Shown here piece after piece: positions 5,095 to 63,197 of a stretch of 64,000 nucleotides of DNA. Origin of the DNA: Foetidibacter luteolus. Its GTDB lineage: Bacteria > Bacteroidota > Bacteroidia > Chitinophagales > Chitinophagaceae. Numbering within the stretch: position 1 is the first letter of the stretch; every line of letters starts with the position of its first letter. The notes below the pieces were generated by a model. The model was not told where the DNA came from and searched no databases. It worked only from the letters and a program-made list of their open reading frames with translations. Location: positions 62,001 through 126,000 of the forward strand of contig NZ_VVIP01000052.1 of assembly GCF_009650435.1 (NCBI RefSeq), written 5' to 3'. The translations under genes were made by a program, and so were the position numbers.

Positions 5095-6222
5095 TTATTT
5101 AGCTTTTTCTACCACTTCTTCGGCCAGGCCAAAACTTAGCGTCATGCCTGCGCCGCCAAGGCCGTTAACAATGGTAACACCCTGTTCCGGGCTGTGCACA
5201 AAATCTGTTTGGCCATCTGTTTTTTTAGGGTAAATGCCATGCCAGCTTTGCGCTATGGTCCAGTCTTTAAACACCGCAAATTTTTTAAGGTAATCAACAA
5301 TTAACTGGTTAATAAATTGCTTGTCAAACGGGTCAAAAACCTGGGCATACTCATGGCTGTCACCAATGGTTAGCTCGCCCTCGGCATTTTGAGATACCAT
5401 AACATGAATGCCCCATTTAATATAGTCTGGCAGTGTTTTTTTGAAATGGTCTTTTAACTGCGGCAAAGAAACCGCGGCTTCAAAACCTTTGTAGTGTATA
5501 AGCGATAAGCCGCCACAAAGTGAAGGGCCAATGCGCCAGCCATTGGGTTGCGCAGTAATACGCATCATCTGCAGTTTACACTTGGTAAAAAAGTTGGCTG
5601 CAAAAATTTCGGGGTACAGCGTTTCAAAATCTGCACCGTTGCAAACATATATTTCGTCGGCGTTGTACACTGCCCCGGCAGCGGTAACGGCTGGATGCCG
5701 GATAGCTGTTACGGCTTTTCCAAAATGAAAAACAACACCATATTTTTCCGTTAAGTAGGCCGGTATTTTTTCAATAGCCACCCTTGCTTCCACAATCATT
5801 TCATCGGCGCTCCACAAAGCGCCCAGCAGGCCATTGCTGTTAACAGCTCCAGACTTTTTAACCGCTTCCGCAGGGCTGATGGCTGCTACACTACGTGTGG
5901 GTCGATAGGCTTCAGCAAATTCATTGATGACCTGCCACTCCAGCGGGTGGTGGGCAAGGTGAAGGCTGCCCACTTCGTTGTACCAAAGCCCGGCGCCATC
6001 GCATACCTGTTTCCAGATGCTTTTGCTGCGCAATGCCCTGTCATATAAGTATCCGTTTGGCTGGCCAATGGGCCATACCATTCCAAAATTGCGGATAGAG
6101 GCACTAACAGCTTTTTCATTTCTTTCAAAAACTGTTACCTTGTAACCCCTCTCGGCAAGGCTTTTTGATACTGCCAGGCCCACAATACCGGCCCCGATAA
6201 CAATCGCTTTTTTTTCAGGCAT
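5095..6222 (-). CDS. Phosphonate-associated FAD-dependent oxidoreductase (TIGR03364/HpnW-PbfD type)
   Basis: 375 residues. The N-terminal dinucleotide-binding motif GAGIVG (residues 10-15) with an acidic residue at the end of strand 2 (VFERN), and a C-terminal FAD-contact segment (NGLGGAGMTLSFG), mark the DAO/glycine-oxidase superfamily. The pattern SIRNFGMVWPIGQP near residue 42 is typical of the subgroup seen in phosphonate operons. Members are reported or proposed to oxidise 2-aminoethylphosphonate or its N-methyl derivative to phosphonoacetaldehyde, which is the substrate of PhnX encoded just upstream. It overlaps the transporter gene by 8 bases (ATGCCTGA), so the two are translationally coupled. 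The exact amine substrate is inferred from context only. Confidence 0.8.
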   Translation of the reverse strand: MPEKKAIVIGAGIVGLAVSKSLAERGYKVTVFERNEKAVSASIRNFGMVWPIGQPNGYLYDRALRSKSIWKQVCDGAGLWYNEVGSLHLAHHPLEWQVINEFAEAYRPTRSVAAISPAEAVKKSGAVNSNGLLGALWSADEMIVEARVAIEKIPAYLTEKYGVVFHFGKAVTAIRHPAVTAAGAVYNADEIYVCNGADFETLYPEIFAANFFTKCKLQMMRITAQPNGWRIGPSLCGGLSLIHYKGFEAAVSLPQLKDHFKKTLPDYIKWGIHVMVSQNAEGELTIGDSHEYAQVFDPFDKQFINQLIVDYLKKFAVFKDWTIAQSWHGIYPKKTDGQTDFVHSPEQGVTIVNGLGGAGMTLSFGLAEEVVEKAK

Positions 6223-7519
6223 AAGTTGTTTGTTGTGTTAATTGCATAGATGAATATTTTTTCCTGAACCAGGCTGCCGCTACTGCGGTACCGGCAATAC
6301 CCACGATGCAAATAATGATAATCGCGGTTGAAAAAAAACTTGTCCACGACAGGCCGGTACCTATTTGTTTTTTAAGAAACAGGAACAATACGCTGCCGAG
6401 ATAACCAAATGAATCTGCGATGTAAATAATAAAGCCCACATTGCTTTTTACCTTGTAACTGGCAATCATTCTTTCAAAGTATAAAGCGTTAAAAGGAACG
6501 TAACTTAAGTAAAGCCCGGTGCCAATAGCTGTCATCCATAAAACCGGGCTGATGGATTTGTTTAAGAACAGAAGGGTAGATACCAGCGCCAAAGCATAGC
6601 CACCCATGATAATGTAGTGGTTAATTAAAAAAGCTTTCATGTTGTTCTTAACCAGGATGAGCAGGCTCATACAAAACAGCACAATCAGGGATACCGGTAT
6701 TTCAGTAGTAGTAAAAATGGCGGCCTGGTTACCAAAGCCAAGTTCTGTCCATAGTTCGTTGGCAAAGTTGTCTCTGAAATCCCGTAAAATGGTTAACAAA
6801 ACATAGGTGGTAACAATAATAACAATGCCTGGCAAGAAAATAGAAAGAAAATTCTTACGGTCGCTGGCTGTCATAGGATGGCGTATGCCCCGGTTTTGAA
6901 TATCTTTTGCTGAAGGCAGCGGTGTATGGTTAAGCAACCAGGTACAAACCACCAGCGGAACAACAAATAAAGCGCCGGCAACAAATGGCATCCACGATTC
7001 TGATATGTGCCAGTTTAAAACTATTGATTTACCAATACTTTTGGCCACGCCCGATGAAAAAATGAAGTTAACACACAGTACCGCGCCGATAAACTCTGTA
7101 GCCCTGCGGCCTTCTACATAGCCGAATACAAGGCCCCATATTATACCTAACGGAAAGCCATTCATTACAAAAAACAGGATGTTGTACGGCGCTGGTGTAA
7201 CAGCAAACAGCAACAGCGATGCCCAGCTTGCCAGGATGAGTTTTAGGATAGACGCTGCCCTCTTTTCCCCTTTCATGCCGGCAATTAATTTAATACCATA
7301 GAACTTGCCCAGCATATAGCCGATTGTTTGCGCCGATACCAGCCATATCTTATAATCATCGCCAAGAAAATGCATGCCTGTAAAACCTGCTGCTGAAAAA
7401 GGCTTCCGGTAAATGTACATGCAGAAGTATACTGCAAAAGAGCAGAGGGCAGCATATACAGATATCAGCCAGGGAGGCATACTATCCAGTTTTCGTTGGA
7501 GGCGGTTTGATTTTGTCAT
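6215..7519 (-). CDS. MFS-type transporter (DUF5690-like), probable phosphonate importer
   Basis: About 434 residues from the ATG at 7519 (MTKSNRLQRKL). A longer start at 7549 exists, but those codons lie in a stretch that resembles the flank of dispersed repeat D, so the shorter start is preferred. There are twelve probable membrane helices, with a cytoplasmic loop near the middle (residues about 205-225). Features such as FCMYIYRKPFSAAGF resemble the DUF5690 group of Bacteroidota MFS-like proteins. It lies between phnX-like and the FAD oxidoreductase gene and overlaps the latter, so import of 2-aminoethylphosphonate or a related phosphonate across the inner membrane is the natural guess. The substrate is not visible in the sequence. 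Confidence 0.75.
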   Translation of the reverse strand: MTKSNRLQRKLDSMPPWLISVYAALCSFAVYFCMYIYRKPFSAAGFTGMHFLGDDYKIWLVSAQTIGYMLGKFYGIKLIAGMKGEKRAASILKLILASWASLLLFAVTPAPYNILFFVMNGFPLGIIWGLVFGYVEGRRATEFIGAVLCVNFIFSSGVAKSIGKSIVLNWHISESWMPFVAGALFVVPLVVCTWLLNHTPLPSAKDIQNRGIRHPMTASDRKNFLSIFLPGIVIIVTTYVLLTILRDFRDNFANELWTELGFGNQAAIFTTTEIPVSLIVLFCMSLLILVKNNMKAFLINHYIIMGGYALALVSTLLFLNKSISPVLWMTAIGTGLYLSYVPFNALYFERMIASYKVKSNVGFIIYIADSFGYLGSVLFLFLKKQIGTGLSWTSFFSTAIIIICIVGIAGTAVAAAWFRKKYSSMQLTQQTTYA

Positions 7520-7552
7520 GTGTTGAGTAGTGAATGATGAATTTTGCATCAA

Positions 7553-7751: not shown

Positions 7752-8444
7752 TCAGTTTTCCAGGATGTTTATTAATTCTTCCAAATCATCAATGATAAAA
7801 GATGGTTCATAGGGTTCAAGCTCCTGCCGGGTAAAGGCGCCGGTGGTAACCGCAATAGAATATAGGCAACCTGCATTTTTACCTTCATTTACATCTACCT
7901 CTGTATCGCCGAGCTTTATTACTTTTTTGCTGTCTTCAATGCCGGCTTCTTTCATCATCTTCTGTATCATGAATGGTTGCGGCCTGCCGGCAGGTACTTC
8001 GTCGCTGGATACTACATAGTCTATCTTGCCATCGGCCAGCCAGCCCAGCCTGCTGATAATAACATTGGTTATTTCTGTTGAAAAGCCTGTATCAAGCCCG
8101 ATTTTTATGTTGTTCTTTTTCAGGTAATCAAATACTTCTTCCGCATGTGGCATGGGCTGCAACTGCTCTGTGGTTTTGTAGTGCTCTACCATCAGGTAAA
8201 GAAAGCGATCGTGTATGCTGTTGATGTACGCTGCATTGATGGCTGCAATATCGCTTTCATATTCTTCCAGCATAAGCCTGATGGCTTCGGGCTTTTTATA
8301 ACCCATCAGCGGGTTAATTTTTTCAACAGGTATATTGTAACCGTTTTCGGCCATTGCCTTTTGAAAGGCAATGGCAATTTCACCATGGTCTTTTACAGTA
8401 GTACCGGCTATATCGAAGACTACTAACTGGATGTCATGCTTCAT
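7752..8444 (-). CDS. phnX: Phosphonoacetaldehyde hydrolase-like HAD enzyme (phosphonatase)
   Basis: 230 residues from the ATG at 8444; the upstream extension is not protein-like. HAD superfamily: motif 1 FDIAGTT has the nucleophile Asp11, and motif 4 KLGDTEVDVNEGKNAG supplies the magnesium-binding acids. In the cap region, MGYKK places Lys51 where phosphonatases carry the Schiff-base lysine (Lys53 in Bacillus cereus PhnX, motif MGLLK), so C-P cleavage of phosphonoacetaldehyde to acetaldehyde and phosphate is plausible rather than plain phosphatase activity. It belongs to the phosphonatase-like group TIGR03351. The neighbouring FAD oxidoreductase could supply the aldehyde. The two copies of dispersed repeats on either side may separate it into its own transcript. 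Confidence 0.8.
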   Translation of the reverse strand: MKHDIQLVVFDIAGTTVKDHGEIAIAFQKAMAENGYNIPVEKINPLMGYKKPEAIRLMLEEYESDIAAINAAYINSIHDRFLYLMVEHYKTTEQLQPMPHAEEVFDYLKKNNIKIGLDTGFSTEITNVIISRLGWLADGKIDYVVSSDEVPAGRPQPFMIQKMMKEAGIEDSKKVIKLGDTEVDVNEGKNAGCLYSIAVTTGAFTRQELEPYEPSFIIDDLEELINILEN

Positions 8445-8520
8445 GTATGTTGGTTTTGCTGAAACGTATTTTAAAAATTTTTGGAACAATAAATTCTGGC
8501 TACAATTCGCGTTATAGAAA

Positions 8521-8690
8521 GCTAAAACGCTGTTTTACTTTTTTGTACCCGGAACAAGTCCGGGACAGGCTTGACCAAAAAAGGCAACCGAAATCGTAGG
8601 TTGCGTAAAAAAAGTCAAGAAAGAAACGATATACAGCACGTTTCTTTCTTACGCCCTGATTAGGCTTTTGTACTACTGTGGCTTCAGCAA
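8521..8690 (-). repeat. Dispersed hairpin repeat family C, copy 2
   Basis: Inverted relative to the copy at 4946-5050. It has a perfect 12-bp hairpin (AAGAAAGAAACG 8617-8628, CGTTTCTTTCTT 8639-8650) with the same 10-base loop. It also carries two extra hairpins not in copy 1: CCCGGA-ACAAG-TCCGGG near 8549-8565 and GCAACC-N9-GGTTGC near 8584-8604. The shared right end is AATCAGGGCG read on the minus strand. Confidence 0.8.
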
Positions 8691-8804
8691 TAGAATTTCC
8701 ATCAGCAGCACTTACCAATCATGAAGGGGCACTAAAATCAGTTATTTCTAAAGGTTTACGGGGCAGGTTGACGATGTTTTGTTACGCTGCTGCACCCCCG
8801 CGCC

Positions 8805-8876
8805 AGGGATTGAAGCGGATACCCCGCTGAAGGCATTGTGTGCGGCCTTGTGGCGGAGTATGAGCGGAAAGCCCGG
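8805..8876. repeat. Dispersed repeat family B, copy 2
   Basis: AGGGATTGAAGCGGATACC at the left and GGCGGAGTATGAGCGGAAAG near the right are identical to copy 1 at 1676-1748; only the middle differs. It lies 3' of the PhnZ-like gene. Confidence 0.75.
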
Positions 8877-8908
8877 TGCCTTCGGCAGGCGCCCTGACAA
8901 AACCCCGT

Positions 8909-9490
8909 TTAGTATTTGTTTTTCAAGTAATCAAGAATGAGGCCGGTGAAATGCTGCAGGGGCAGTAAAACCGCATCCTGCTTTTTTGCTTCCTCATCCC
9001 AACGGCGCACTTTAATGATGTCTTCAAAGAACGGGTGCTGCTGAAAGGTCTGCACCTCCTGCGGCGACATTAGCCCGCCCTGCCACTGCATCATTGTTTG
9101 CAGGCTGGCTTCGGAAAGTTTATGCCGGTAGGCGGGATTGGTGGTGACAAGATAGCGTTTTGCAGGCACATGCATTTCTACCATAGCGCAAATTCTGCCG
9201 GAAAAGCCTTTGCCGGCAAGCCATGCGGCGCCCACGCCTTCGTGATTTACCACGCCGTAATTGCCCATGGTTTCTGTATGTTGTTTGTGCCGCAGCAAAT
9301 GGCCCACATCGTGCAGCAGTGCGCCTAAGATAAGCTCTATATCAGAACCTTCTGACATGGCTTGCATGGCGCATTGCAACATGTGTGAAGTTTGTGTTAC
9401 GGGTTCTCCGTCGTAATCTTCGCTGCCATGCTTTTCAAACAGCTCTTTTATTTCTGCCGTAACAGTTTGCGGGTTGATGATAGCTGCCAT
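8909..9490 (-). CDS. phnZ: PhnZ-like HD-domain diiron oxygenase
   Basis: 193 residues from the ATG at 9490, a usual PhnZ length; an upstream TTG would overlap the previous gene. All key residues of PhnZ appear present: iron ligands His36, His60-Asp61, His83, His107 and Asp165, and substrate residues Tyr26, Glu29, His64, Lys111, Ser129 and Arg162. Each lies two to four positions from its PhnZ counterpart (Y24, E27, H34, H58/D59, H62, H80, H104, K108, S126, R158, D161). PhnZ cleaves (R)-1-hydroxy-2-aminoethylphosphonate with O2 to glycine and phosphate; the sister enzyme TmpB acts on the trimethyl analogue. A PhnY/TmpA hydroxylase to make the substrate is not in this window. Four bases separate it from the upstream phosphatase-superfamily gene. 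Confidence 0.85.
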   Translation of the reverse strand: MAAIINPQTVTAEIKELFEKHGSEDYDGEPVTQTSHMLQCAMQAMSEGSDIELILGALLHDVGHLLRHKQHTETMGNYGVVNHEGVGAAWLAGKGFSGRICAMVEMHVPAKRYLVTTNPAYRHKLSEASLQTMMQWQGGLMSPQEVQTFQQHPFFEDIIKVRRWDEEAKKQDAVLLPLQHFTGLILDYLKNKY

Positions 9491-9494
9491 AAGG

Positions 9495-10568
9495 CTATTT
9501 GTATATTGATTCAATGGGTTTCATTACTTCGTGTGCCGGTTTGAAGTTAAAGCCCAGCAAAGCGGCAAGTGTGGTAGCTATCTGGCGTTGGTATAACTGG
9601 CCTTGTTCTTTTACTTCGCCAAGTGGTTTTGTATCCGGCCCTAATGCCACCAGCCATATTTCGTTGGAATCGGCCACTTTCTCGCCATGGGATGTCCATT
9701 CGGATTTTACTTTATCACCACGGCCATGATCGCAGGTGATGATGAGGGTTGTTTTGTTTTTGTATTGCGGCATGGATTGGATGGTATTCCACAGGTCTTC
9801 TATCATACGGTCCTGCGAATAAGCGCTCCTTAGATATTGGTCGTACATGCCGCCATGAGCAAAATCGTCTGTTTCGTCGAAAGCTATGTACAGCACTTTG
9901 GGCTTATATGCTTTGAGGTATTCCCTTGCGGCGAAGTAGGTAATAACATCGGGCCTTACACCAATGGGGCGGGTTGTCAGGAACTGCCAGTCGTTAATGA
10001 GTTTAAGATGGTCGTCTTTAAACTTAAGCGTATCTACATCTGAGTTAACATATATGCCGCTGCGTGGCGCATTTAAGATGTATGGGAATACGCCCCAGGT
10101 TGAAAAAGCCGCCACTTTGTTTTGATAACCGGGCTGCTTGTTGATGAACTCCAGAACGTTTTCGTTTTTGTTATAAACCTTATCGTTGCTGTTAACAGCC
10201 TTATCAGGGTAGCCGGTGAAGATTTCATTGTAACCAGGATAAGAAAACTGGTAGGGGTTGGTGATGTTTACGAAGTTGTTGTATGTTCTGTTGCCATAAA
10301 TCTGTCCGTGGTTGTTTATGGCCGACCAGATAAATGGGAATATCTTTTTCCTGCTCTCTTCAGGAGCAGGGGCGTAGAAGGATTGCGCAACATACTCACT
10401 GTCTCTTGTATATTGTTTACTGTTCATTAAGGCGGTGTCAACGCCTTTCATTACTTCCTGCCAGCGCATACCATCCAGGGTAACAATGATGATGTTTTCT
10501 GTTTTGTGCTGGGCGGAAAGTGTAGCTGAGATGGAAATGAGCAAGCCAATCAATAAGCGGAATTTCAT
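9495..10568 (-). CDS. Secreted alkaline-phosphatase-superfamily hydrolase
   Basis: 357 residues with a cleavable signal peptide (residues 1-19, ending LSA). Metal and catalytic pattern of the nucleotide pyrophosphatase/phosphodiesterase branch: Asp32 (VTLDGMRW), a probable nucleophile Ser109 in FSYPGYNE (aligned with the Thr of FTNPNN in phosphonoacetate hydrolase), the cluster DETDDFAH, then CDHG and a late TSHGE histidine. It is thus a two-zinc esterase of the periplasm or cell surface. Between SusD and PhnZ, it most likely releases a small phosphonate from a larger ester such as a phosphonolipid or a phosphonate-decorated glycan, although a plain phosphodiesterase or phosphonoacetate-type hydrolase is possible. 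It is four bases from phnZ. Confidence 0.75.
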   Translation of the reverse strand: MKFRLLIGLLISISATLSAQHKTENIIIVTLDGMRWQEVMKGVDTALMNSKQYTRDSEYVAQSFYAPAPEESRKKIFPFIWSAINNHGQIYGNRTYNNFVNITNPYQFSYPGYNEIFTGYPDKAVNSNDKVYNKNENVLEFINKQPGYQNKVAAFSTWGVFPYILNAPRSGIYVNSDVDTLKFKDDHLKLINDWQFLTTRPIGVRPDVITYFAAREYLKAYKPKVLYIAFDETDDFAHGGMYDQYLRSAYSQDRMIEDLWNTIQSMPQYKNKTTLIITCDHGRGDKVKSEWTSHGEKVADSNEIWLVALGPDTKPLGEVKEQGQLYQRQIATTLAALLGFNFKPAHEVMKPIESIYK

Positions 10569-10679
10569 GATGAAAATGTTTTGCGGTTAGCGAAAAAAAT
10601 TTACTGTAATGGCTGGGTGCTAATAAGAAAGAATGGCGCACAATGCATGCGCCATTCGTCTTATAACTGTATAATAACT

Positions 10680-12212
10680 CTATTGCAATACCCAGGGTTT
10701 GGTATTAATGTCATCGGTTCCACCCTGGCGTGATACGGCTTCTGCGCGGTTATCGCCATTAAGTGTTTGCTCAGATTGAGGATAGATGTACCTGATAGGT
10801 ACCTTGCCATTGTTAAGGTTAGCGGGACCAGGCACCACAGCAGGCATACCTGTCCTGCGCCAATCGTACCAGGCTTCCAGGCCGTTGAAGTAAAGTGATA
10901 TCCATTTTTGCAGGGCTATCTTTTCCAGCCTTTGTTGCGTAGTGCCTGTATAGGCAACGCTTGCCTGTTCTAGATAGCCGGCAGGCATGGCAATATCCAG
11001 GCCGTAAGCGGAGGGTACAACGGCCAGCCAGTATTCGAAATTGGCGTTAATACCGTTTTTATAATAGGTTTCTGCAGTGCCAGTGGTAATAATGTTTGCT
11101 TCTCTGGCTTCGGCAAGAATGAACTGAAGTTCTGCGTAAGTCATCAGTAATGCCCGTGGCGCTGCGGGGTCTGGAGGGGCCTGGCCAACATCGTTACAAA
11201 CCAGGCAGGCAAAAGTGTAACCTACCCTTGACACACCTTGTACACCGCCATTGTAGGCCAGCGCATCCACATCGCTAAGGCCATTGGGGATGCCCTGTAT
11301 TTCCGGTGTTCCGGCAGCCACTGATTTTTGTGTGGGCCTTGCAAAAATATTCAAACGGCTATCACCGAGGGTTTTAAGCCTGTCAACCATTGTTTTGCTT
11401 ATGCGGAACTCGTCAAAAGAACCCACACGTGCACCATACAGCGGCCACTGGTTGGGCGCCGCAGCAAGATATTCCAACTGTGCATTGTCATCGTTGCTTT
11501 CAAAAATGGGGTTGGTGGTTGTATTGCCAATAATTTCCTGCATCTGGGTTTTTACATCCACCTTTTTTGAAATGCGCATCAGGTAACGCAGGCGCAAAGA
11601 GTTGGCTAGTTTACGCCATTGTATGATGGAGGACGCACCACCGCCAAACAAAATGTCCCCACCAAGTGTAGCTCCGCTGCTGGTGGCTAAAACTTCATTG
11701 GCTTTTTTCAGATCGGCCAATATGCCTGTATAAATATCCTGTTGTGCATCGTATTTGGCCTGGTATATTTCTTCCAGCTTGGCTTTGCCAGCTTCAGAGT
11801 AAGGAATGTCACCATAAGCATCTGTAGCCTGGGCGAACATCCATGATTTAAGAATAAGACCTACTCCATAGTACGGGTTGCTCTCATCACCGCCAACAGC
11901 AGTAAATATGTTCTGCAGGTTGCGGTAATTGCCATACACGTTATTCCAAACATCATTACGCTCTCCCCATTGATAACGGTCTTCGTTTACGAACTGAATT
12001 TTGGAGTGGTGCTGGATAACTATGTTACCAATGCCCCAGGCTTCATTTACCTGCAGGTTCATCATATTGCGGATGATGCCGCTTAACAATAGATCCGGAG
12101 TAACGTTGGTGGGGTTATTTTCGTTGGTGTTGACTTCTGCAAAGTCCTTGGTACAGCTATACAGCAACGTAATCGCCAGTACCGGTAAGAGAAATATCTT
12201 AATGCGTTTCAT
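10680..12212 (-). CDS. SusD/RagB-family surface lipoprotein
   Basis: 510 residues. The lipobox LLYSC puts the lipidated Cys at residue 20. The early motif (SCTKDFAEVNTNENNPTNV), TPR-like helices around AQATDAYGDIPYSEA and the late LEKIALQKWISLYFNGLEAW segment are those of the SusD-like_2 group. SusD proteins cap the SusC transporter on the cell surface and bind the ligand. Its gene follows susC after 32 bases and precedes the phosphatase-superfamily gene by about 110 bases. The gene order predicts that the ligand carries a phosphonate rather than being a plain glycan. Confidence 0.9.
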   Translation of the reverse strand: MKRIKIFLLPVLAITLLYSCTKDFAEVNTNENNPTNVTPDLLLSGIIRNMMNLQVNEAWGIGNIVIQHHSKIQFVNEDRYQWGERNDVWNNVYGNYRNLQNIFTAVGGDESNPYYGVGLILKSWMFAQATDAYGDIPYSEAGKAKLEEIYQAKYDAQQDIYTGILADLKKANEVLATSSGATLGGDILFGGGASSIIQWRKLANSLRLRYLMRISKKVDVKTQMQEIIGNTTTNPIFESNDDNAQLEYLAAAPNQWPLYGARVGSFDEFRISKTMVDRLKTLGDSRLNIFARPTQKSVAAGTPEIQGIPNGLSDVDALAYNGGVQGVSRVGYTFACLVCNDVGQAPPDPAAPRALLMTYAELQFILAEAREANIITTGTAETYYKNGINANFEYWLAVVPSAYGLDIAMPAGYLEQASVAYTGTTQQRLEKIALQKWISLYFNGLEAWYDWRRTGMPAVVPGPANLNNGKVPIRYIYPQSEQTLNGDNRAEAVSRQGGTDDINTKPWVLQ

Positions 12213-12244: not shown

Positions 12245-15200
12245 TTACAGTTTAAAGCTCAGGTTAATGCCATAGCTGCGGGTGGTAGGTATGCTCATGT
12301 ACTCAATACCCGGTAAAGCTGTGCCACCGGAGTAAGACATGTTTTCAGGGTCAACATGCGGTACATTATCCCATAGCAGCAGGTTACGGCCCACCAATGA
12401 AACGGTTACCCCTTTAAAGGGAAGTTTGCCGAACACTTTGTCGCTAATCGTGTATCCAATCTGTAGTTCACGAAGCTTAACAAAAGAGGCGCTGTACATA
12501 ACACCTTCCGCTATATTACGGCCTGCTGTCCAGGCGGTATGCCACTCACGTGCAGTAAGTTTGGTTGTGTTTTCAGTAAAGCTACCATCATTGTTCTGCA
12601 CTACCCCTTGGCCTATTACGCCATTGCCGGGTTTGCTGAGGTCGTAGCCATCGGCACGGCCTTCCAGTGTTTCCGCAATAATGCCACCTTCGCGGCCAAC
12701 GGTTTGTGTTAAGGAGTACAATTCACCACCCTGGCGTATATCGAAGAGGAAGCTAAGGCGTACACCTTTGTAATTAAAGCTATTGCCAATACCCATCAGC
12801 CAGTCAGGGTTGTAGTTGCCAAGTTTCATAACGTTTGTAGTAGCTACAGGACGGCCATTTGCAGCGAATACCATCTGGCCTGCGAATTTACCTGAGGCAT
12901 CATAGTAAGGTGCGGAAGCATCGCTGCTTTGCACCCTGGCGAAGCCAATACCGTAAAGGTCGCCCATTCTTTCACCTACTTTGGCAAGTACCTGAACTGA
13001 TCGGCTGGCCATTTGGTAGGTAGTTAGATCGTCACTTAGCTCAACCACTTTGCTGCGGTTAGCTGAGAAATTGATATATCCATCCCAGCTAAAGTTTTTG
13101 GTTTTAACCGGAGTATAGTTCAGCATTACTTCCACACCATAATTGCGGATAAGACCGGCGTTGATTACCCTGCTATCGTAACCGCTGGTATTGGAAAGCG
13201 GTATATTCAAAATTTGGTTTTTGGTGCTGCTACGGTAATAAGTAACATCAATACCTAACCTGTTATTCAGAAAACGCAGGTCTGCGCCAAATTCGTAAGC
13301 TGAGCTGATTTCAGGCTTAAGCCTCAGGTTGGCCAGGCGGCTGGTTTCGCCATATATCTGACTGCTGCCAAACGGGTCGCTCCTGTTGAAAGTTTGCGTA
13401 AATGCAAATGGGTCTGTGTCGTTACCCACTTGTGCAAAACTGGCCCTAACCTTGGCAAAACTGATTGCGTTTGGCAATCTAACCATATCGCTAACCACTG
13501 CGCTCAGGGCAACAGAAGAGTAGAAGTAAGAATTGTCTTCTGAGCCCAGCAGTTTAAGATCATTGGGTAGTGTAAGGGCACTGCTCCAGTCGTTACGGCC
13601 GGTAATATCCAGAAAGATCATATTCTTGTAAGCAAGGCCTGCAGAACCATACAAACTGTTGATTCTTTTAGCAACATTACTTTGATCTGCCACCAATGCA
13701 ATACGTGAGTTGGTAAGCCTGTAAATGTTAGGAATATTTAACTGGCCTGCTACTGCCTCATTAAACCTGGAGGACTGGCGCATTTGGTTGCCGCCTGCTG
13801 TGGCTGTTAAGCTGAAATCATTATTGATGGGTTTATTTACAGTAAACAGAAAGTCGCTGTTGCGTTCTTCGTTAATGATCGTTACTTCCCTGTACTCACC
13901 AAAAGGAAAGCGCTGGGTGCTGAAGGCCCTGCGGTATTCACGGCGCTCATTGCTCCAGTCGGTGGCTGTACGCAACTGCAGGCTAAGCCAATTGGTAAAA
14001 TCATATTTAAGGATAACGTTGCCAATTAGACGGTCATAGTACTGGCCGTTGGTATTCTGGTAAACGGTAAGATAGGGGTTATCGTGATAGTTGTAGTTCC
14101 AGCTATATTGCCTTTGATTTTCCAGGCCATTTTGCCATAGCCGCATCATATCCCTCACCTTTACAGAAGCAGGCAGCCAGCAATTAAACAGGTACATAAT
14201 GCTTTCTGTGCCATAGCTGATGGAAGGGCGGTTATCGCTTTCGCTCTTGATGTAGCTTACGAATGCCCTTGCGGAAAGTTTGCTGGTAAAGTTGTAGCCA
14301 CCAGATATTGAAACCGTATGCCTGGCAAGGTCTGTATTGGGAACAATGCCTTTTTGATTAAGGTTGGTATAGCTAAGGCGGAAGTCACCGTCTTTGTTAC
14401 CTGCTGTTAAAGCCACATTGTTGGTAAATGTGCGGCCGGTTTCTAAAAAGTTTTTGAGGTTATCAACGTCCGGCTCCCATAAAGTTGGGGTAATTATACT
14501 TCCGGCAGGGGCATTTAAATCGCCCCCGGTGTAGGGTATGGTTTCTCCGTTTAAAGTACGTGGAGAGTTATATTGCGGAAACAATTGGCCTCTAAAAGCA
14601 GGGCCCCAGCCTTCGTCAGTGCCATCGGCGAGACCACCGCCGCCGCCATTAACAAAAGCAAAGTCTCCGCCGCTGCCATTACCCTGGCCGTATACCTTCT
14701 GATAGTCGGGCAGTTTTAAAGCTTTTTCCATTGTTGCGTTGCTGTTAACTTCAACGCCAATGCCACGCTGCTTTCTGCCGCCTTTTGTTTTAATAAGAAT
14801 TACACCATTAGCAGCCCGTGAACCGTAAAGGGCCGCTGCAGCAGGGCCTTTTAAAACGCTCATGCTTTCAATATCATCTGGATTTATAAAGCTTGCACCA
14901 TTACCGTAATCCACCTCCATATTTCCCCTGCCCGAAGCGCCGCTGATTGAATTGCTGATGGGCACACCATCGATTACATAAAGCGGCTGGTTTTTATTCA
15001 GGTCTACAGAGCGCTCCCCACGTATGGTAACCCTTGCAGAACCGCCAATGCCAGATGGACTACCCACAACGGTAACACCAGCTACTTTGCCAGCCAGTTG
15101 GTTAACCACATTACTTTCGCGGGCTACGGTAAGTTCATCGCCTTTCACTTCCTGGATAGCGTAGCCCAATTTTTTCTTTTCACGCTTAATACCTAATGCC

Positions 15201-15541
15201 GTTACAACCACTTCATTTAACTGGTTGCTGCCCTGTGTAATTTCTATTTCCATAAAAGCTTCACCGGTAACCTTTACCAGTTGTTCATTGTAGCCAACAT
15301 TGGAAATCAGCAGGTCGCTGCCTTTGATTACATTAATGCTAAACTCACCATTTTCGTTGGTTAAGGTTGCCTTAGAGCTGTTGTTTACAGCAATAGTGGC
15401 GCTAGCTACCGGCTTTTTGGTAGCCGCGTCAACAATGCGTCCCTTTAAACTATACTCCTGTGCAAACAAGTAAGCCGAGAAAAAAAATGCTGCTATGAAC
15501 ATAACACAGCATTTTGTGTAATGGGGTAATCGCTGCTTCAT
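12245..15541 (-). CDS. SusC/RagA TonB-linked outer membrane transporter
   Basis: 1098 residues, the normal SusC size. A signal peptide (to about residue 27) is followed by the carboxypeptidase-D-like domain (LKGRIVDAATKKPVASATI), the plug with NEVVVTALGIKREKKKLGYA and ALYGSRAANGVILI, and a long beta-barrel ending in an aromatic strand (SYGINLSFKL). It imports a ligand bound by the partner SusD, powered by TonB-ExbBD encoded elsewhere. No N-terminal STN signalling domain is present, so regulation does not run through an anti-sigma factor; the XRE-cupin regulator immediately upstream is the likely controller. It is the first structural gene of the phosphonate locus. Confidence 0.95.
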   Translation of the reverse strand: MKQRLPHYTKCCVMFIAAFFFSAYLFAQEYSLKGRIVDAATKKPVASATIAVNNSSKATLTNENGEFSINVIKGSDLLISNVGYNEQLVKVTGEAFMEIEITQGSNQLNEVVVTALGIKREKKKLGYAIQEVKGDELTVARESNVVNQLAGKVAGVTVVGSPSGIGGSARVTIRGERSVDLNKNQPLYVIDGVPISNSISGASGRGNMEVDYGNGASFINPDDIESMSVLKGPAAAALYGSRAANGVILIKTKGGRKQRGIGVEVNSNATMEKALKLPDYQKVYGQGNGSGGDFAFVNGGGGGLADGTDEGWGPAFRGQLFPQYNSPRTLNGETIPYTGGDLNAPAGSIITPTLWEPDVDNLKNFLETGRTFTNNVALTAGNKDGDFRLSYTNLNQKGIVPNTDLARHTVSISGGYNFTSKLSARAFVSYIKSESDNRPSISYGTESIMYLFNCWLPASVKVRDMMRLWQNGLENQRQYSWNYNYHDNPYLTVYQNTNGQYYDRLIGNVILKYDFTNWLSLQLRTATDWSNERREYRRAFSTQRFPFGEYREVTIINEERNSDFLFTVNKPINNDFSLTATAGGNQMRQSSRFNEAVAGQLNIPNIYRLTNSRIALVADQSNVAKRINSLYGSAGLAYKNMIFLDITGRNDWSSALTLPNDLKLLGSEDNSYFYSSVALSAVVSDMVRLPNAISFAKVRASFAQVGNDTDPFAFTQTFNRSDPFGSSQIYGETSRLANLRLKPEISSAYEFGADLRFLNNRLGIDVTYYRSSTKNQILNIPLSNTSGYDSRVINAGLIRNYGVEVMLNYTPVKTKNFSWDGYINFSANRSKVVELSDDLTTYQMASRSVQVLAKVGERMGDLYGIGFARVQSSDASAPYYDASGKFAGQMVFAANGRPVATTNVMKLGNYNPDWLMGIGNSFNYKGVRLSFLFDIRQGGELYSLTQTVGREGGIIAETLEGRADGYDLSKPGNGVIGQGVVQNNDGSFTENTTKLTAREWHTAWTAGRNIAEGVMYSASFVKLRELQIGYTISDKVFGKLPFKGVTVSLVGRNLLLWDNVPHVDPENMSYSGGTALPGIEYMSIPTTRSYGINLSFKL

Positions 15542-15709: not shown

Positions 15710-16282
15710 TTATTTTTCTTCAAAAAAATATACTACCAGCATCGTGTAATAATCATGTGTAAGACATTGAGAGAGATGGGGCTTGCGGGCATCGTAATAA
15801 AAAGAGTCGCCTTCTTCCAGTATATATTCCTTGTCATCAATGGTGTACTTCATGGTACCCCTGATCATATAATTATACTCAAAAGCATTGGTGGATACGA
15901 AACCTCTTTCTGCATTATGATCCTGGCGGTACAGAACAATATCCACCAGTTTACCATCAGATTTAAACGACATAATGCGGTTGTAATAGGAACCCTTGGT
16001 ATATTCTTTTTCAAATGGCTGCAATGCCGTGGCCTTTACCAGCACAGGTTCATCGCTTTCCTTATTACCCAGGTTATCAAAAAAATCATTCAGGTCAACA
16101 TGCAAGGCCCTGATGATGCCCAGCAAAACACTTAGCGAAGGGACCGTACGGTTATTTTCAATTTGAGAGATAAGGCCCTTGGTAACGCCAGCCTCATTAG
16201 CCAGCGCCTGCAACGTAATGTGTTTTTCTTTGCGTTTTTCTTTAATGCGGCTGCTTATCTGAAGAAGGATATCGTTTTGCAT
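15710..16282 (-). CDS. XRE-family regulator with C-terminal cupin sensor
   Basis: 190 residues. The N-terminal helix-turn-helix spans about residues 8-62 (ALANEAGVTKGLISQIENNRT is the recognition core, NRTVPSLSVL follows). The C-terminal half is a cupin barrel (EYNYMIRGTMKYTIDD, EEGDSFYYDARKPH). Such XRE-cupin proteins are usually repressors or activators of a nearby catabolic operon that sense a pathway metabolite in the cupin. It lies directly upstream of susC on the same strand with a gap of 168 bases, so it is the best candidate regulator of the phosphonate locus. The sensed molecule, perhaps an aminophosphonate, is inferred only. Confidence 0.85.
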   Translation of the reverse strand: MQNDILLQISSRIKEKRKEKHITLQALANEAGVTKGLISQIENNRTVPSLSVLLGIIRALHVDLNDFFDNLGNKESDEPVLVKATALQPFEKEYTKGSYYNRIMSFKSDGKLVDIVLYRQDHNAERGFVSTNAFEYNYMIRGTMKYTIDDKEYILEEGDSFYYDARKPHLSQCLTHDYYTMLVVYFFEEK

Positions 16283-60072: not shown

Positions 60073-61179
60073 ATGAACAGGTATATACATAAATTAAGCG
60101 AAGCTTTTAAGAAAGAGGGCCCGGCAGGTGCTTTTAAAAAAATAATGCGTAATGTTTCCATACGCAGTAAAAGAAAGCTTACAATTAATAAAAGAAGCCT
60201 GGAAAACTGGGCTGATCTTAAGGGGAAATTCAAAGGCAAGAGAGCTTTCTTAATTGGCAATGGCCCCTCTCTTAATAAAACCCCGCTGTACCTGCTGGAG
60301 GATGAATACTGTATTTGCTTTAACAGGTTTAATGTAATGTTTGAGCGGCTGGGGTGGGTGCCTAAGTTTTACATGTGTGCAGATGCGCTTGTTGCTAAAG
60401 ATATGGCCGGGGAAATTAATGAAATTGCCAGCCAGGTAGAGTTGGCTTTTTTCCCGGATATACATACCAGCGGCCTTGATTTCAGAACGTTTATAGATGA
60501 CAGAGAAAACATTCAATGGATGTTTCCTGAATTCAAGGGGTTTTATTTCGACCTGCCTAAAGTTGGCCTCGGCGGTTCTGTAGCCTACCCGGCATTGCAG
60601 GTATTAACCTTTCTTGGGTTTTCAGAAATTTACCTGATTGGGGTGGATATGAATTACCAGGTGGTAAAATCGGTTAAGGAAATAAAAGGTACGGATGTGG
60701 CTTCTCAAAAAGATGATGATCCCAACCACTTTGACCCGCGCTATTTTGGCACCAACAGAAAGTATCACCAGCCCGTTAAAGCCGTGGTGGATAATATCAT
60801 GTCTTCGTTCGATTACGCGGCTGTTAAAATAGCGGAAAACACCCCCACCAAAGTATATAATGCAGGCATAGGCAGCAAGGTGGAATGTTTTGAGAAGGTA
60901 GATTTTAACAGCCTGTTTTCCAATGTTACCGAAGAGGAAAAATTCAGGTTGTTTGGTAAACCATTTTCAAAAGCAGTTACTTTTAACAACTACGATGATA
61001 TGGTTGCCAAAGCAACCCTCGTAAATGCTAAAGACGAAATATCAGAAGGGATGCCTTACTTTCTTGCCCCGGTTGAATTGGGGGGAGCTTTAATTAAAGA
61101 TTTGATTTTTAAGTACATACCGTTTGGCCCGTATAAGGATAATATGCTGTTTGTATCCCGTACCCTGCTCGAAAAATAA
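60073..61179 (+). CDS. MptE-like/DUF115 domain protein, paralogue 1 (glycosyltransferase candidate)
   Basis: 368 residues without signal peptide. An N-terminal basic helix is followed by a Rossmann-like domain with AFLIGNGPSLNKTPLYLL (residues about 58-75), CICFNRFNVMFERLGW and SEIYLIGVDMNYQ. The GNGPSL-type loop and the GVDMNY strand are shared with the MAF flagellin-glycosylation and MptE-like group and with sialyltransferases such as CstII. A DPNHFDPRYFG segment recurs in paralogue 3. A transferase of a CMP- or nucleotide-activated sugar acid is likely in this cluster. It is the first of three tandem paralogues. Confidence 0.72.
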   Translation: MNRYIHKLSEAFKKEGPAGAFKKIMRNVSIRSKRKLTINKRSLENWADLKGKFKGKRAFLIGNGPSLNKTPLYLLEDEYCICFNRFNVMFERLGWVPKFYMCADALVAKDMAGEINEIASQVELAFFPDIHTSGLDFRTFIDDRENIQWMFPEFKGFYFDLPKVGLGGSVAYPALQVLTFLGFSEIYLIGVDMNYQVVKSVKEIKGTDVASQKDDDPNHFDPRYFGTNRKYHQPVKAVVDNIMSSFDYAAVKIAENTPTKVYNAGIGSKVECFEKVDFNSLFSNVTEEEKFRLFGKPFSKAVTFNNYDDMVAKATLVNAKDEISEGMPYFLAPVELGGALIKDLIFKYIPFGPYKDNMLFVSRTLLEK

Positions 61180-61283
61180 TTACCGGCTAAAATAATTGCG
61201 GTGGTGTTAATGCTATGCCATATAAAACAAAGCAGGCAGTGTATGCCTGTTGTTGAATAAATAGATGTATAAATTTTAAAAGT

Positions 61284-62114
61284 ATGAGCAGGTTAAGATA
61301 TTTAAAGGATTTGTCTTTCAAAGAATTATCTGTTGAGAGAATTGCAACTGCTATAAATTCAAGAATGAAGGATCTGCCTCATTTATTGTCATGGCATCTT
61401 AACAGCAGAACGGCAAAAAACAACAAGAAAAAACTGGAGGCCTTTCATAATATACATAAAGGAAAAAGATGCTTTATTGTAGCCAATGGCCCAAGTTTAA
61501 AAAATACGGATTTGTCTTTATTGAAAGACGAAATAACCATTGGCATGAACCGCATTTACCTGAGTGCAGAGCAAAATGGCTTTATGCCCACCTATATAGT
61601 TGTACATGACATACCTGTGCAACTACTGCAGTTTAGGGAAGATTTTGAGCAGCTTGCATTGCCTAAGTTTTTTAACTGGAATGCCCGTAAGCATTTTACG
61701 CATAAGGATAACCTCACGTTCATTCGCTCAGATTACAGCCCGCATTTTTCAACAGACCTCACTAAAAGCACCTGGGGCGGGCATAGCGTAACCAATATAT
61801 GCATTCAGCTTGCATTTTACATGGGGTTTGATGAAGTGTACCTGGTAGGTAAAGATCACAATTACGAACAAAAGGGTACGCCAGGTAAAATGATTAAAGC
61901 AACGGGCGAAGAAACAAACCATTTTGCCAAAGGATACTACAAAAAAGGCATGGGATGGCGTATACCGGATTACAAAGGAGAGGAACTGGCATATACGCTG
62001 GCCAGGGAAGGATTTGAAAAAGCAGGCCGCAAAATTTTCGATGCTACCATCAATGGAAAACTGGAAATATTTCCAAAAGTTGATTACTATTCTCTCTTTA
62101 AGCAAAAGGCATAA
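61284..62114 (+). CDS. MptE-like/DUF115 domain protein, paralogue 2
   Basis: 276 residues, about 90 shorter than its neighbours at the C-terminus. The core elements are FIVANGPSLKNTDLSLL (NGPSLKN as in CstII sialyltransferase), TIGMNRIYLSAEQNG, THMGFDE-like IQLAFYMGFDEVYLVGKDHNY, and NHFAKGYYKKG corresponding to the DPNHFDPRYFG of the others. It probably shares the catalytic type with a different acceptor. It ends three bases before paralogue 3 begins (stop TAA 62112-62114, ATG 62118), hence operonic. Confidence 0.72.
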   Translation: MSRLRYLKDLSFKELSVERIATAINSRMKDLPHLLSWHLNSRTAKNNKKKLEAFHNIHKGKRCFIVANGPSLKNTDLSLLKDEITIGMNRIYLSAEQNGFMPTYIVVHDIPVQLLQFREDFEQLALPKFFNWNARKHFTHKDNLTFIRSDYSPHFSTDLTKSTWGGHSVTNICIQLAFYMGFDEVYLVGKDHNYEQKGTPGKMIKATGEETNHFAKGYYKKGMGWRIPDYKGEELAYTLAREGFEKAGRKIFDATINGKLEIFPKVDYYSLFKQKA

Positions 62115-62117
62115 TAT

Positions 62118-63197
62118 ATGAGATCATTACTAAAAAAAGCAAAGAAAACCCTTGAAAATGATGGTGTAAAGGTATTGGGTATCAGGGTTTTTAATTATTC
62201 CATAGTAAAGTTAAAACGCCTTACCCGCAAAACGGATAAAGCCAATCTTGAAAAATGGAAACAACTGAAAGACAAGTATAAGGGAGAACGAATATTTGTA
62301 ATTGGTAATGGCCCATCTTTAAACAGAACTTCTGTACACCTTCTTAAAGATGAGTACACCATGTGCTTTAACCGTATCAACCTTATGTTTGAGCGGCTTA
62401 ATTTTAAGCCAGACTTTTACGTGGTTATTGATGACCTGGTTGTATTGGATAACGATAAGGAAATAAATACCGAAATATTGCCCCAGGTAAAATATGCCTT
62501 CTTCCCCGATATACACCCATCTAATGTTGATTTTATCAACTATATAGACCATGCAGAAAATGTACACTGGTTTAAGTCAGACATTCCAGCTTTCAGAAGC
62601 GATTTGCCCTACTGTGGGCACAACAAAACAGTAGTGAATGCCGGCCTGCAAATTGCCGCTTATCTTGGTTTTTCTGAAATCTATATGATTGGTGTGGATA
62701 TGGCCTTCAGCGATCAGAAGGTTAAGAAAATCACCTCCAGGGATTGGCAGGCTGGTGAGAACGATCCAAACCATTTCGACCCCCGATACTTTGGCAACGG
62801 CAGAAAGTATCATAACCCAACCGTGCCCGAAATGATAGAAAAATTTGAGGAGGGTAAAAAGTTTTTTGATAAACTGGGGGTTAAAATTTACAATGCCGGC
62901 GTTGGGGGTAAGCTGGAGGTTTTTCCAAGGGTTAATTTTGACTCGCTGTTTAATTATACCGATGATGAAATTATTGCACTCTTTTCCGATATAGAAATAT
63001 TGAAGAAAATGAACCTTGATTTCAGGTATGTTATTGAGAATGCTCCCCTGGTTACAGATGCTTCCGCAGAAACATTTCCAAAAATATTCAAGGCCGATAT
63101 TGATTTAGGCATAACCCTTATTCACAAGCTTATTCATACTTACGCCCCTGTTGGCCCCTATAAAGGCCAGTATTATTTTGTAAATCGTTCTTTGTAA
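62118..63197 (+). CDS. MptE-like/DUF115 domain protein, paralogue 3
   Basis: 359 residues, closest to paralogue 1: FVIGNGPSLNRTSVHLL, MCFNRINLMFERLNFKPDFY, SEIYMIGVDMAFSDQ, DPNHFDPRYFGNGRKYHNP and YNAGVGGKLEVFPRVNFDSLF. Both have a C-terminal extension ending in a YxPxGPYKxxxxFV-type segment (TYAPVGPYKGQYYFV here). The DPNHFDPRYFG pattern is likely the acceptor or catalytic region. A strong terminator follows at 63258. Its place at the end of the cluster fits a glycosyltransferase role. Confidence 0.72.
   Translation: MRSLLKKAKKTLENDGVKVLGIRVFNYSIVKLKRLTRKTDKANLEKWKQLKDKYKGERIFVIGNGPSLNRTSVHLLKDEYTMCFNRINLMFERLNFKPDFYVVIDDLVVLDNDKEINTEILPQVKYAFFPDIHPSNVDFINYIDHAENVHWFKSDIPAFRSDLPYCGHNKTVVNAGLQIAAYLGFSEIYMIGVDMAFSDQKVKKITSRDWQAGENDPNHFDPRYFGNGRKYHNPTVPEMIEKFEEGKKFFDKLGVKIYNAGVGGKLEVFPRVNFDSLFNYTDDEIIALFSDIEILKKMNLDFRYVIENAPLVTDASAETFPKIFKADIDLGITLIHKLIHTYAPVGPYKGQYYFVNRSL

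Follow-up and report, generated by a model that had tools for sequence, protein, structure and literature searches.

A SusCD-linked gene row of Foetidibacter luteolus that probably scavenges preformed (R)-1-hydroxy-2-aminoethylphosphonate together with non-hydroxylated aminophosphonates

One row of genes in Foetidibacter luteolus encodes two different candidate C–P cleavage enzymes, a PhnZ-like oxygenase and a PhnX-like hydrolase, and no known hydroxylase that would supply the first of them was found in the locus or in the genome. In our favored reading, which we hold to be probable, the locus scavenges a mixture of aminophosphonates: PhnZ would act on preformed (R)-1-hydroxy-2-aminoethylphosphonate [(R)-HAEP], while the FAD-dependent oxidase PbfD and the PhnX-like hydrolase would act on the non-hydroxylated amines. 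The window, by which we mean the whole 64,000-nucleotide stretch that was analyzed, comes from a 7.28-Mb genome that is 99.98% complete.

The gene row and its products

The row is transcribed on the minus strand, in the order regulator, SusC, SusD, esterase, PhnZ-like, gap, PhnX-like, DUF5690, and PbfD:

15710..16282, minus strand: XRE-cupin (PuuR-like) regulator, PF01381 + PF07883; likely regulator of the row
12245..15541, minus strand: SusC/RagA-type TonB-linked outer-membrane transporter, TIGR04056, 627 bits
10680..12212, minus strand: SusD-like lipoprotein, the ORF directly after SusC; homologues recur beside PhnZ in relatives
9495..10568, minus strand: alkaline-phosphatase-superfamily (NPP-type) esterase, probably exported, PF01663
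8909..9490, minus strand: PhnZ-like HD-domain mixed-valent di-iron oxygenase, TIGR03276, E = 4e-60
8590..8700, minus strand: hairpin and trailing U7 between PhnZ-like and PhnX-like, folding energy −28 kcal/mol, z −2.98
7752..8444, minus strand: PhnX-like HAD hydrolase (phosphonoacetaldehyde hydrolase-like), TIGR03351, E = 5e-52, under the cut-off
6215..7552, minus strand: DUF5690 membrane protein (MFS fold), PF18943, 530 bits
5095..6222, minus strand: FAD-dependent amine oxidase, TIGR03364 (HpnW/PbfD), E = 6e-128, 427 bits

A preliminary description of this DNA had recognized two different C–P cleavage enzymes, and both are indeed present as minus-strand ORFs that keep their active-site residues. 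It had also placed them side by side. They are neighbors on the same strand, but they are 464 bp apart, and the gap contains a hairpin and a U run. Its gene picture named PhnZ and PhnX correctly and left out the FAD gene at 5095-6222, PbfD.

The PhnZ-like ORF starts at an ATG at 9490, with an alternative TTG at 9514, and its product is 40% identical to crystallized PhnZ (4MLM). We use the name PhnZ-like because its TIGR03276 score of 202.6 bits falls just below the curated cut-off of 214.6 bits, a threshold that only 31 of the order's 92 genomes with PhnZ exceed. With residue roles that we assign from the 4MLM/4MLN structures, the six iron ligands (H34, H58, D59, H80, H104, and D161; PhnZ numbering) and the substrate or gating residues Y24, E27, K108, S126, and R158 are all identical, and H62 and Q133 are likewise kept. 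The ligand and substrate columns are almost invariant across 92 aligned rows. Thus, the earlier statement that the iron ligands and substrate residues are all retained holds at each of the 13 positions that were compared with PhnZ.

The PhnX-like ORF starts at an ATG at 8444, with an alternative TTG at 8489. It scores 176.9 bits against TIGR03351 (curated cut-off 218.9) and 131 bits against TIGR01422, the PhnX phosphonatase family (curated cut-off 220), and since both NCBIfam cut-offs are missed, we call it PhnX-like. In Bacillus cereus PhnX numbering, the nucleophile D12, the Schiff-base lysine K53, R160, D186, and D190 are kept, and these columns are also kept in 57 of 57 PhnX-like relatives. 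This alignment bears out the earlier claim that the Schiff-base lysine is conserved. The DxAGT motif of TIGR03351 reads DIAGTT, and the cap lysine K53 and arginine R160 are present. H56 of true PhnX is an alanine here, as in most of the PhnX-like family.

The gap hairpin at 8590-8700 is strong and A/U-rich and is followed by seven U residues, and its sequence marks it as a possible terminator or attenuator. A single transcript for PhnZ and PhnX-like is therefore not a given. Scans for promoter and terminator consensus sequences gave matches no richer than those in shuffled sequence.

The remaining products of the row suggest a route of uptake. The SusD-like ORF at 10680-12212 had no match in the NCBIfam search, and a homologue of the XRE-cupin regulator lies near SusC in 19 related loci. 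The esterase is predicted to adopt the AP fold (pLDDT 92.8), and its N terminus is hydrophobic by eye. It carries S109 and the residues D32, D234, H238, D280, H281, and H294, which we take to be the nucleophile and the metal ligands. Among 23 homologues these columns either do not vary or are conserved to 90% or more, and we regard the enzyme as a candidate phosphonate-ester hydrolase. The AlphaFold model of DUF5690 (pLDDT 88) finds its best PDB folds in human G6PT1/SLC37A4 (E = 3e-8, TM 0.66/0.73), and this predicted fold makes it a probable G6PT/OPA-type importer of phosphonates or organophosphates. A sequence-profile search of the PDB returned no solved structure close to the esterase or to DUF5690, and our literature search found no paper on DUF5690.

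In the scheme that we propose, the SusC/SusD pair would carry aminophosphonate conjugates across the outer membrane, the exported esterase would free their head groups, and DUF5690 would bring these into the cytoplasm. PbfD would then oxidize AEP and N-methyl-AEP to phosphonoacetaldehyde, as characterized PbfD enzymes do, and the PhnX-like hydrolase would split phosphonoacetaldehyde into acetaldehyde and phosphate. (R)-HAEP made by other organisms would enter already hydroxylated, to be cleaved by PhnZ to glycine and phosphate. PhnY* would not be needed if (R)-HAEP arrives preformed.

Genomic company and substrate of PhnZ

PhnZ is present in 92 of the 399 genomes sampled from the strain's order, and its 93 loci there are often built from the same parts. 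PbfD occurs in 59 of these loci, PhnX-like in 55, and both in 51; DUF5690 is found in 65, SusC or SusD in 59, and the NPP-type esterase in 38. PhnZ and PbfD co-occur more than by chance, with 75 of 399 genomes holding both where 25 would be expected (p ~5e-38, by a statistic that ignores phylogeny). The pairing is not obligatory, since in 27 of the sampled genomes PbfD is present while PhnZ and PbfA are both missing. The named relatives that have the row, among them Chitinophagaceae, Spirosoma, and Mucilaginibacter, show it to be a typical feature of Bacteroidota. In Pseudomonas, several loci (L176, L184, L216, L219, and others) have a PbfD-type FAD gene beside PhnZ and no PhnX-like gene nearby; L176 also has genes resembling an ABC transporter.

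The PhnZ of the window falls in a clade of six (support 100/93) in which the hydrolytic branch is swapped and PhnZ stays. Its partners are PbfD and PhnX in the window, L114, and L116, and PhnW, phosphonoacetaldehyde dehydrogenase (PhnY), and PhnA in L100, L104, and L108. The PhnW, dehydrogenase, and PhnA of L100 lie above their cut-offs where these were checked. Outside these counts, the "PhnA" of L061 and the aminotransferase and dehydrogenase of L075 and L097 are possible superfamily matches and were not scored as PhnWYA clusters.

A second line of evidence comes from the (R)-HAEP-specific lyase PbfA (PMC8154272), which is found in 13 of the 399 genomes. At L242:3690-9164, PhnX-like, DUF5690, and PbfD stand with PbfA in a genome without PhnZ. 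PbfA here takes the place of PhnZ, in an exchange of two unrelated enzymes with a common substrate. Six of the 33 PbfD genomes that lack PhnZ carry PbfA. The F. luteolus genome itself has a second PhnZ-like gene on another contig (C59, locus L008; 9634-10215), directly beside a PbfA ammonia-lyase gene (10315-11667) whose product scores 644 bits and clears the curated cut-off of 525. The C59 pair is an exception to a published survey, in which PhnZ and PbfA never shared a cluster and no genome with PbfA had PhnZ (PMC8154272). (R)-HAEP is not properly processed via PhnW/PhnX, and a separate enzyme for it makes sense because its deamination product, 1-hydroxy-phosphonoacetaldehyde, is apparently no PhnX substrate (PMC8154272). 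The best documented source of (R)-HAEP in the cited literature is an Acanthamoeba polysaccharide (PMC8154272); the preliminary description had pointed to natural phosphonolipids.

These observations also bear on whether PhnZ instead acts on another alpha-hydroxyphosphonate, such as N-methylated HAEP, hydroxymethylphosphonate, or a hydroxy-alkylphosphonate, which we consider improbable. PhnZ tolerates several (R)-alpha-hydroxyphosphonates, and its relatives cleave hydroxymethylphosphonate or M3HAEP (PMC10574752). In keeping with such a shift, the window protein misses the cut-offs of all three curated PhnZ subfamilies, and the neighboring PbfD may prefer N-methylated AEP. However, Y24 and E27, which we take to face the substrate amino group, are both kept, the (R)-HAEP-specific PbfA replaces PhnZ in L242, and the enzymes that accompany PhnZ within its clade (PbfD, or PhnW and PhnA) belong to aminophosphonate metabolism.

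Search for a hydroxylase

The preliminary description saw no PhnY or TmpA in the window, and none was found there by sequence. A search of the whole genome for PhnY/TmpA-like oxygenases returned no TauD-family protein and five PhyH proteins, none of them close to PhnY*. A normal TmpA is thus unlikely, since the genome is without a TauD-family protein. Over aligned stretches, the identity of the five PhyH proteins to four reference PhnY* proteins is about 20-29%, rising to 32-37% in short pieces of 23-63 residues; by comparison, the references are 45-51% identical to one another. No PhyH gene of the genome lies near phosphonate genes. Among the PhnZ genomes, nine carry neither PhyH nor TauD, and PbfD is present in eight of these nine; G050, which has no PhnZ, was excluded from this count.

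The references were taken from PhnZ loci of other phyla, either as adjacent genes (L141 and L154) or as fusions to PhnZ (L149 and L155), and since all four were picked up, the search is able to detect PhnY*. For the contig search that gathered PhnZ loci, an alignment served as the query; the window PhnZ alone gave no match. The two fusions are single ORFs with PhnZ at the N terminus and PhnY* at the C terminus, one from Myxococcota (L149:6734-8329) and one from a Pseudomonadales MAG (L155:3418-4743). They correspond, in bacteria, to the fungal PhoF fusion.

It is therefore disfavored that the hydroxylase simply lies elsewhere, as the preliminary description had allowed. This would require a PhyH protein of the genome, or an oxygenase unrelated to that family, to turn AEP into (R)-HAEP for PhnZ, and we rate it as quite unlikely. 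The presence of five PhyH proteins speaks for it, as does a PhyH4-type gene in a relative (L115:6759-9559) that lies two genes from a C59-type PhnZ, on the opposite strand. This gene is the only PhyH near any PhnZ in the order sample (1 of 93 loci). The distance of the five PhyH proteins from PhnY*, the lack of linkage between any PhyH of this genome and phosphonate genes, and the nine PhnZ relatives with neither PhyH nor TauD speak against it.

The other option raised earlier, that the substrate arrives already hydroxylated, is supported: the absence of a known hydroxylase, the exchange of PhnZ for PbfA in L242, and the strain's own PhnZ-PbfA pair all favor it. Phosphonate made by the strain itself was also considered as a source of HAEP and was rejected, since PepM is absent from the genome. 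The strain is thus not apparently a phosphonate maker.

The hydrolytic branch and relation to known systems

PbfD accounts for the PhnX branch of the row, as the most likely supplier of the PhnX-like substrate. The protein clears the curated TIGR03364 cut-off (427 vs. 285.1 bits), and by analogy with characterized PbfD proteins, for which M1AEP and AEP are substrates (PMC10590968), it is probably an N-methyl-AEP/AEP oxidase that yields phosphonoacetaldehyde. PhnW was not found in the genome, where the best match reaches 35.9 bits against a cut-off of 400.8; clusters of the PbfD2 type likewise lack PhnW (PMC10590968). An older TIGRFAM idea, in which both branches would act on hydroxylated substrates, with PbfD/HpnW turning HAEP into hydroxy-phosphonoacetaldehyde and PhnX-like releasing glycolaldehyde and phosphate, draws on a TIGR03364 family note that proposes HAEP as the substrate of the FAD enzyme (quoted in PMC10590968) and on the missing H56, by which the PhnX-like substrate could differ, but it is very doubtful given that characterized PbfD proteins work on M1AEP and AEP (PMC10590968), that 1-hydroxy-phosphonoacetaldehyde is apparently not taken by PhnX (PMC8154272), and that close relatives swap PbfD/PhnX for PhnW, PhnY-dehydrogenase, and PhnA, the AEP-phosphonoacetaldehyde route.

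It is useful to contrast the locus with systems already described. First, it shares with the oxidative PhnY*/PhnZ pathway for AEP (also TmpA/TmpB and GmPhnY/GmPhnZ) a di-iron oxygenase of the PhnZ type, its ligands all retained, but here no known 2-oxoglutarate hydroxylase was found in the locus or genome, and a hydrolytic branch is coupled instead. Second, it resembles the PbfD2-PhnX pathway (PMC10590968) in having a TIGR03364 FAD oxidase and a PhnX-type hydrolase in a genome without PhnW, whereas its PhnX is of the TIGR03351-like form, and PhnZ, SusCD, the NPP-type esterase, and DUF5690 are added. Third, like SusCD polysaccharide utilization loci, it has a SusC/SusD pair, an exported hydrolase, an inner-membrane transporter, and a regulator; unlike them, it has no glycosidases, and its payload enzymes are those of phosphate release from phosphonates. 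Finally, phnZ is known from 15 of 1186 phnWX clusters and 24 of 75 phnWAY clusters (Table 1, PMC8154272), where PhnZ beside a hydrolytic AEP route was also read as separate (R)-HAEP processing. The present form differs in being from Bacteroidota, in its PbfD/PhnX-like branch, SusCD, and esterase, and in that one genome can hold PhnZ and PbfA together, even as neighbors.

Thus, PhnZ without PhnY* beside hydrolytic AEP genes, and the same reading of it, are already known (PMC8154272). By the literature that we searched, what is new is the SusCD-linked Bacteroidota form with PbfD/PhnX-like and its frequency in the order, along with the exchange of PhnZ and PbfA, the pairing of the two on C59, and the recurrence of DUF5690 as a transporter candidate. 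In surveys, phnZ is commonly taken to mark AEP oxidation via PhnY*. The PhnZ of this order is tied to hydrolytic AEP modules, without a known hydroxylase, an indication that these bacteria really use (R)-HAEP as a nutrient. DUF5690 gains a testable role, and the row offers a candidate route by which conjugated phosphonates may be taken up.

More broadly, and only as a tentative suggestion, such rows could represent a Bacteroidota class of SusCD "phosphonate utilization loci" that evolved to harvest foreign phosphonate lipids or glycans. In such loci, PhnZ and PbfA would be alternative modules for (R)-HAEP, and DUF5690 would exchange phosphonate for phosphate as an antiporter. Within that suggestion, soil-amoeba polysaccharide yielding (R)-HAEP would be one possible target.

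Elsewhere in the window, at 60073-63197, three consecutive ORFs (368, 276, and 359 aa) appear by eye to be paralogues of one family, in surroundings that look like an exopolysaccharide gene region.
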